A DNA stretch of 64,000 nucleotides, taken from Desulfovulcanus ferrireducens (lineage in GTDB: Bacteria; Desulfobacterota; Desulfovibrionia; Desulfovibrionales; Desulfonatronovibrionaceae). This document shows positions 5,456 to 6,034 of the stretch, piece by piece. Position numbers and translations under genes: made by a program. Numbering within the stretch: position 1 is the first letter of the stretch; every line of letters starts with the position of its first letter. The notes below the pieces were generated by a model, which worked only from the letters and a program-made list of their open reading frames with translations, ran no database searches and had not been told where the DNA came from. The stretch covers positions 1-64,000 of the forward strand of contig NZ_JAGUQP010000017.1 in NCBI RefSeq assembly GCF_018704065.1, given 5' to 3'.

Positions 5456-5482
5456 TTCAGGAGTTGGACAGGCTATCGCCCC

Positions 5483-5575
5483 GCACCCACTTTGTACACG
5501 GTAACTTTATGATATGAAAAAAAGTTGATTGGGATTCCTTAAAGCAACTCAATTTACCGCGTACAAAGTGGGTGC
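5483..5575 (+). repeat. Inverted-repeat insert in rnpB helix P3
   Basis: A 93-nt unit that begins GCACCCACTTTGTACACGGT and ends in its reverse complement with one mismatch. The pairing continues outward through CCCC/GGGG, giving a ~26-bp helix with an A+T-rich ~45-nt loop. The same terminal sequence recurs at 5667-5762. It lies exactly where P3 belongs, between the P2 strand and GAGGAAAGTCCGG. Confidence 0.85.
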
Positions 5576-5666
5576 GGGGAGGAAAGTCCGGGCTCCACAG
5601 GGCAGGACGCTGGGTAACGCCCAGTGGGGGTGACCCCAGGAAAGTGCCACAGAAACAGACCGCCCT

Positions 5667-5762
5667 GCACCCACTTTGTGAACGGTAAATTGAAGTAAGA
5701 ACAGTAACGAAGAACTAAAAGTTTTTTAGAGCAATCCAATTTACCGCGTACAAAGTGGGTGC
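5667..5762 (+). repeat. Inverted-repeat insert in rnpB helix P12
   Basis: A 96-nt unit with the ends GCACCCACTTTGT and ACAAAGTGGGTGC. Its right 24 bases are the same as those of the P3 insert (TTTACCGCGTACAAAGTGGG core plus TGC). The left arm has three adjacent mismatches near 5680. The loop resembles the P3 loop only near its right side (AGCAA-TCCAA versus AGCAACTCAA). It occupies the P12 position between ACAGACCGCC and GGTAAGGGTG. Confidence 0.85.
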
Positions 5763-6034
5763 AGGGTAAGGGTGAAAAGGTGGGGTAAGAGCCCACCAGT
5801 TACTGCGGTGACGCAGTAAGCTAGGCAAACCCCGTCCGGAGCAAGACCAAATAGGAAGGCGCTTGAGACTGGCCCGGTCGATGCCTTCGGGTAGGTCGCT
5901 TGAGGCAGAGAGCAATCTCTGCCCTAGAGGAATGATAGCCATCTGGTTAACCTGAGTTTTCAGGTAAGCCAGAGACAGAACCCGGCTTATCGTCCGACTC
6001 CATTATAAAAAATACAAAGTGTAAAGTTATTTCT

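Follow-up and report, generated by a model that had tools for sequence, protein, structure and literature searches.

A dispersed palindromic repeat at hairpin tips of RNase P RNA, 23S rRNA and cobalamin riboswitches in part of the Desulfovibrionales

RNase P RNA and rRNA differ widely in the length of their peripheral helices, and the source of the extra segments is rarely known. In 23S rRNA, intervening sequences are hairpin inserts at tolerant helix tips, usually those of helices 9, 25 and 45, and are excised by RNase III. Repeats are also found in the RNase P RNA gene, rnpB, of heterocystous cyanobacteria, in the form of STRR repeats (PMC2858038). Mitochondrial genomes carry hairpin elements of several kinds, including the sponge RHEs, the fungal double-hairpin elements and the yeast GC clusters (PMC2800124, PMC4478555), and those located in rRNA reportedly stay in the transcripts (PMC2800124). 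Here we describe two similar hairpins in rnpB of Desulfovulcanus ferrireducens and the repeat family to which they belong.

The window, a 64,000-nucleotide stretch of the D. ferrireducens genome, carries rnpB. The neighbourhood of this gene, a zinc-ribbon protein on one side and an IspD-IspF fusion, CysS and SelB on the other (names read from translations), is suggestive of Desulfovibrionales-like bacteria. A cmscan search identified the gene as a class A RNase P RNA, with a full-length, untruncated model match (Table 1) and an intact core, the latter in agreement with the first-pass annotation. The two long insertions relative to the model coincide exactly with the tips of P3 and P12. This placement, together with 13-nt termini common to both inserts (start GCACCCACTTTGT, end ACAAAGTGGGTGC), confirmed the earlier proposal that P3 and P12 hold nearly the same inverted-repeat insert. 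The two are identical at 78 of 98 aligned positions, and the shared right end, previously given as 24 bases, extends to 26 in the alignment. Both helices run unbroken into the inserts, with CCCC/GGGG in P3 and CCCT/AGGG in P12 stacking on the shared stem. That each insert forms a hairpin was borne out by RNA folding, at −52.1 kcal/mol for P3 (z −8.7) and −52.3 kcal/mol for P12 (z −10.3), with 0 of 200 shuffled sequences as stable in either case. Such helices would be long enough to act as putative RNase III substrates. Either fate, being kept or being cut, is possible for them, given the retention reported for mitochondrial hairpin elements in rRNA.

Table 1. Positions of rnpB and its two hairpin elements in the window
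Feature	Position	Strand	Basis
rnpB, full length including both inserts	5460..6005	+	RF00010, 332 bits, model 1-367
P3 element with YCCN/N'GGR ends (CCCC ... GGGG)	5479..5579	+	Palindrome boundary four pairs outside GCAC; fold
P3 insert GCAC...GTGC, 93 nt	5483..5575	+	Sequence; 13-mer search
P3 insert right arm, 26 nt, identical to 5737-5762	5550..5575	+	Sequence, alignment
P12 element with ends (CCCT ... AGGG)	5663..5766	+	Fold; palindrome boundary
P12 insert GCAC...GTGC, 96 nt	5667..5762	+	Sequence; 13-mer search
P12 insert right arm, 26 nt, identical to 5550-5575	5737..5762	+	Sequence, alignment

The first-pass annotation had proposed searching the host genome for the terminal sequence, and the exact 13-mer was found only at the four half-sites in rnpB. 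A related form, GCACCCATTT...AAATRRGTGC, occurs at 2 further places; pattern searches placed these diverged intergenic copies at C5:74709-74805 and C5:93699-93793, both outside long open reading frames. Only these two dispersed copies were found in this genome, and they give no evidence of recent activity there.

Among 60 related genomes, most of them drafts, a whole-genome search with paired ends revealed copies outside rnpB, many of them intergenic; the reversed-pattern control gave 0 matches in every genome, and this kind of pattern overlooks degenerate copies and may let through a small number by chance. The rnpB hairpins thus belong to a dispersed palindromic repeat with ends YCCN-GCACYYACTT ... 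AAGTRRGTGC-N'GGR, known from three families within the order. In a comparison of 87 distinct copies, the inverted repeat extends four pairs outward from GCAC before it drops off, whether the copy is intergenic or lies in an RNA, and N pairs with its partner N' in nearly all copies, including intergenic ones. In the arms of the rnpB hairpins 573 of 585 pairs are standard, compared with 482 ± 6 when partners were shuffled. The middles vary in length and sequence. Conserved terminal inverted repeats, dispersed copies and the lack of coding capacity are features that the element shares with MITEs; a fixed-length target-site duplication was in general not found across the copies. A direct-repeat flank, GGGACWGTCCC, was considered as a target duplication and rejected, as it holds at one kind of site only.

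Of 395 genomes sampled across the phylum, almost all of them from outside the element-bearing families, a search with gaps of 30-60, which would miss longer copies, matched a single one, with a different loop. At this search sensitivity the element appears to be restricted to part of the order. When genome contigs were scanned for exact GCACCCACTTTGT..ACGGTAA, unrelated bacteria accounted for nine matches, which we took as chance. Twelve viral contigs (L252-L263) carry the paired GCACYYACTT...AAGTRRGTGC motif.

The first-pass annotation, made from the window, could see only rnpB, which is just one of several RNA hosts. Rfam placement located copies inside 23S rRNA in two genomes (G005 and G006) and inside cobalamin riboswitches. 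In G006 23S rRNA both rrn copies have the element as the hairpin that follows AGCCCAAACC, close to E. coli position 270. In G005 it lies at the tip of H68 in one rrn copy, and the short hairpin TTTTACTTCGGTGGGA occupies exactly that place in the other (L141, L199; helix names are our own reading of the E. coli sequence). We rejected a simple insertion for the H68 case, as comparison of the two rrn copies shows the apical hairpin replaced and not interrupted. Of the 39 rows parsed in a survey of RF00174 matches (~37 real riboswitches), 23 contain the element, which gives at least 23 cobalamin riboswitches carrying it, in every case in one and the same variable hairpin flanked by GCCACTG and GGGAAGG. 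Separately, one cobalamin riboswitch in the window's genome (C25, L235:234-557, minus strand) has ~140 extra nt of different sequence (AGAAGTTAGGCAGATAGGATG...) in this same hairpin, which therefore takes unrelated inserts too.

We collected rnpB from ~50 genomes of the same order. Hairpins with GCACYYACTT...AAGTRRGTGC ends are found in P12, P3 or both in families f1, f2 and f4, whereas P3 and P12 are ordinary short helices in f3 and in almost all f5 genomes. Renewed searches of the genomes without an rnpB match gave nothing new; several of these are incomplete drafts. In two further genomes P12 is a long hairpin whose stem differs in sequence, GCACCTAAAAGGG in one (L011, G004) and GCACCCAAACCGG in the other (L057, G034); these are perhaps diverged copies or different elements. 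In G008 and G015 a contig ends within rnpB, the kind of break that repeats are expected to cause in an assembly.

This distribution bears on the possibility that long P3 and P12 helices with a conserved stem sequence are ancestral, inherited vertically and never mobile. A motif-bearing long P12 is indeed common to f1, f2 and f4, and old f4 copies have kept their pairing through double changes. Extended helices conserved across the whole order had been named in advance as the observation that would overturn an insertion origin; they were found in three families, but helices are short in others, empty or short states occur within families, and presence of the hairpin requires at least 5 changes for P12 and at least 6 for P3 on a rough tree of the rnpB core with modest support, from which P3 and P12 had been removed. 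In addition, the contents of P3 and P12 change places between congeners, and the same ends, sometimes with the same loops, recur in riboswitches, 23S rRNA and intergenic DNA. Ancestry cannot account for the copies in other RNAs and between genes, and we consider strictly vertical inheritance highly improbable.

Several observations point instead to movement and exchange. Loop sequences match between hosts within a genome, the P3 loop of G005 matching one in a G005 riboswitch and the P12 loop of G002 one in a G002 riboswitch. Relatives have the same hairpin, in some cases with a matching loop, in cobalamin riboswitches, in 23S rRNA and at intergenic sites, which lends support to the mobile hairpin insertion suggested by the first-pass annotation. 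Elements also nest at the apex of other elements, in rnpB of G005 and G015 and inside the element of a G002 riboswitch. The same element occupies different helices in congeners: a 148-nt nested element in P12 of G005 is identical at 145 positions (98%) to one in P3 of G015, from the same genus, and the rnpB stretch between P3 and P12 is identical at 83 of 84 positions in these two genomes. Type swapping is also seen among three genomes of a single genus: both helices are of one type in G035 and of another in G027, and G047 has one of each. In 9 of 18 genomes the internal sequences of the P3 and P12 elements are alike (z 4.3-12.6; 7.3 in the window's genome); pairs from different genomes, the reference for these rough z-scores, have a 95th percentile of 2.8, and the other half of the genomes show no likeness beyond the ends. 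This likeness, with the G005-G015 match, is in favour of the gene conversion between helices that had also been suggested.

Exchange might, on the other hand, occur with no transposition at all, if replication switched template between hairpins and the shared ends were a selected motif, for example one recognized in RNA by a protein or by RNase III. The P3/P12 swaps, the replacement of the apical hairpin at H68 of G005 and the complementarity of N and N' even in intergenic copies would all be compatible with this. Such a model does not readily explain why intergenic copies with no known RNA role share the ends and boundary, or why loop sequences match between unrelated hosts, and we regard it as quite unlikely.

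We found no enzyme or transposase mobilizing the element. The element could be a true REP element, mobilized in trans by a RAYT (Y1) transposase that these genomes encode. It is palindromic, often extragenic and without a general target duplication, Y1/RAYT genes are abundant in G005 (31 matches), and some copies lie within GGGGACWGTCCC palindromes, one such palindrome adjoining a Y1 gene. However, the element ends were present within ~1.5 kb in 0 of 30 Y1 loci checked, no Y1 match was found in the element-bearing drafts G003, G007, G008, G009, G016 and G037, and a constant tetranucleotide beside the hairpin was not noticed. We consider RAYT-driven movement an unlikely explanation. Ends paired at insertion-sequence distance were likewise absent among the listed G005 half-sites.

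Two larger repeats contain the hairpin. In G005, a ~190-nt repeat with inverted ends TTAACACTACAGCGAAACTTAT has the hairpin at its centre (L145, L147, L149, L151, L153, L155); direct repeats, GGGACTGTCCC, flank the central hairpin in most copies, and a further copy, with other flanks, has GGGACAGTCCC. Pieces of this repeat are also found within riboswitch hairpins of G005 and G013 (L236, L237). A ~300-nt intergenic repeat of the same genus ends in a 59-nt form of the hairpin (L143, L144, L146, L148, L150, L152, L109).

Taken together, we favour the reading, at a probability of about 0.78, that the rnpB inserts are a lineage-restricted, non-coding palindromic repeat, REP- or MITE-like, that spread as DNA, was kept at hairpin tips and was exchanged between P3 and P12. 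Under this proposal the repeat, probably moved by an enzyme acting at the DNA level, would persist at the tips of existing hairpins. It would lengthen or replace the apical part of a peripheral helix (P3, P12, variable 23S tips or the riboswitch side hairpin) with the core untouched, and the hairpins would stay in the mature RNA. Copies in P3 and P12, ~90 nt apart, could exchange sequence through gene conversion over short tracts or through template switching during replication, or could be replaced by another resident copy; any of these routes would keep the two helices alike within a genome.

An apex position could arise because tips are targeted or because copies survive there. Targeting is favoured by the nested copies and by those located centrally in other palindromes, since nothing obvious selects for an apex in these cases. 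More tentatively, and with the odds against it, mobility may be aimed at hairpin apices, with a folded single strand of DNA or a folded RNA as the substrate, such that the element repeatedly enters helix tips in RNase P RNA, 23S rRNA and riboswitches, other palindromes and its own copies, and would be a natural source of new, exchangeable peripheral RNA helices.

With the same repeat in four settings, filled and unfilled states, and helix swaps, one bacterial lineage offers a traceable source of extra RNA segments. The origin of RNA expansion segments thereby becomes directly testable, and the system lends itself to asking whether apex positions are targeted or merely tolerated. It also carries a warning that assemblies from short reads can be broken within rnpB by repeats of this kind.

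Among open papers we found no report of one hairpin repeat common to bacterial rnpB, riboswitches and rRNA. The cyanobacterial STRR, the parallel drawn in the first-pass annotation, are likewise repeat DNA at a tolerant place in rnpB, but are short tandem repeats, in contrast to an inverted-repeat hairpin in two helices. The 23S intervening sequences share hairpin form and tolerant tips; the present sites, however, are not in helices 9, 25 or 45, and the same repeat is common to other RNAs. MITEs are similarly short and non-coding, with conserved terminal inverted repeats and variable middles, yet the element has no general target-site duplication, and a parent insertion sequence was not found among the listed G005 half-sites. 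The closest parallels are bacterial REPs and the mitochondrial hairpin elements (yeast GC clusters and sponge RHEs). Bacterial REP/BIME with RAYT (PMC2817692) are palindromic, mostly extragenic, dispersed and lineage-specific, as here, but the present hairpins are longer, have variable middles, lie in structured RNA genes and were found flanking no Y1 gene with their ends. Yeast GC clusters have short target duplications, which the present elements mostly lack. Like the mitochondrial elements in general, the repeat is small, occurs in intergenic DNA and variable parts of rRNA genes, and is shuffled and merged without an autonomous coding partner; unlike them, it is bacterial and chromosomal, has other ends, and counts RNase P RNA and riboswitches among its hosts.
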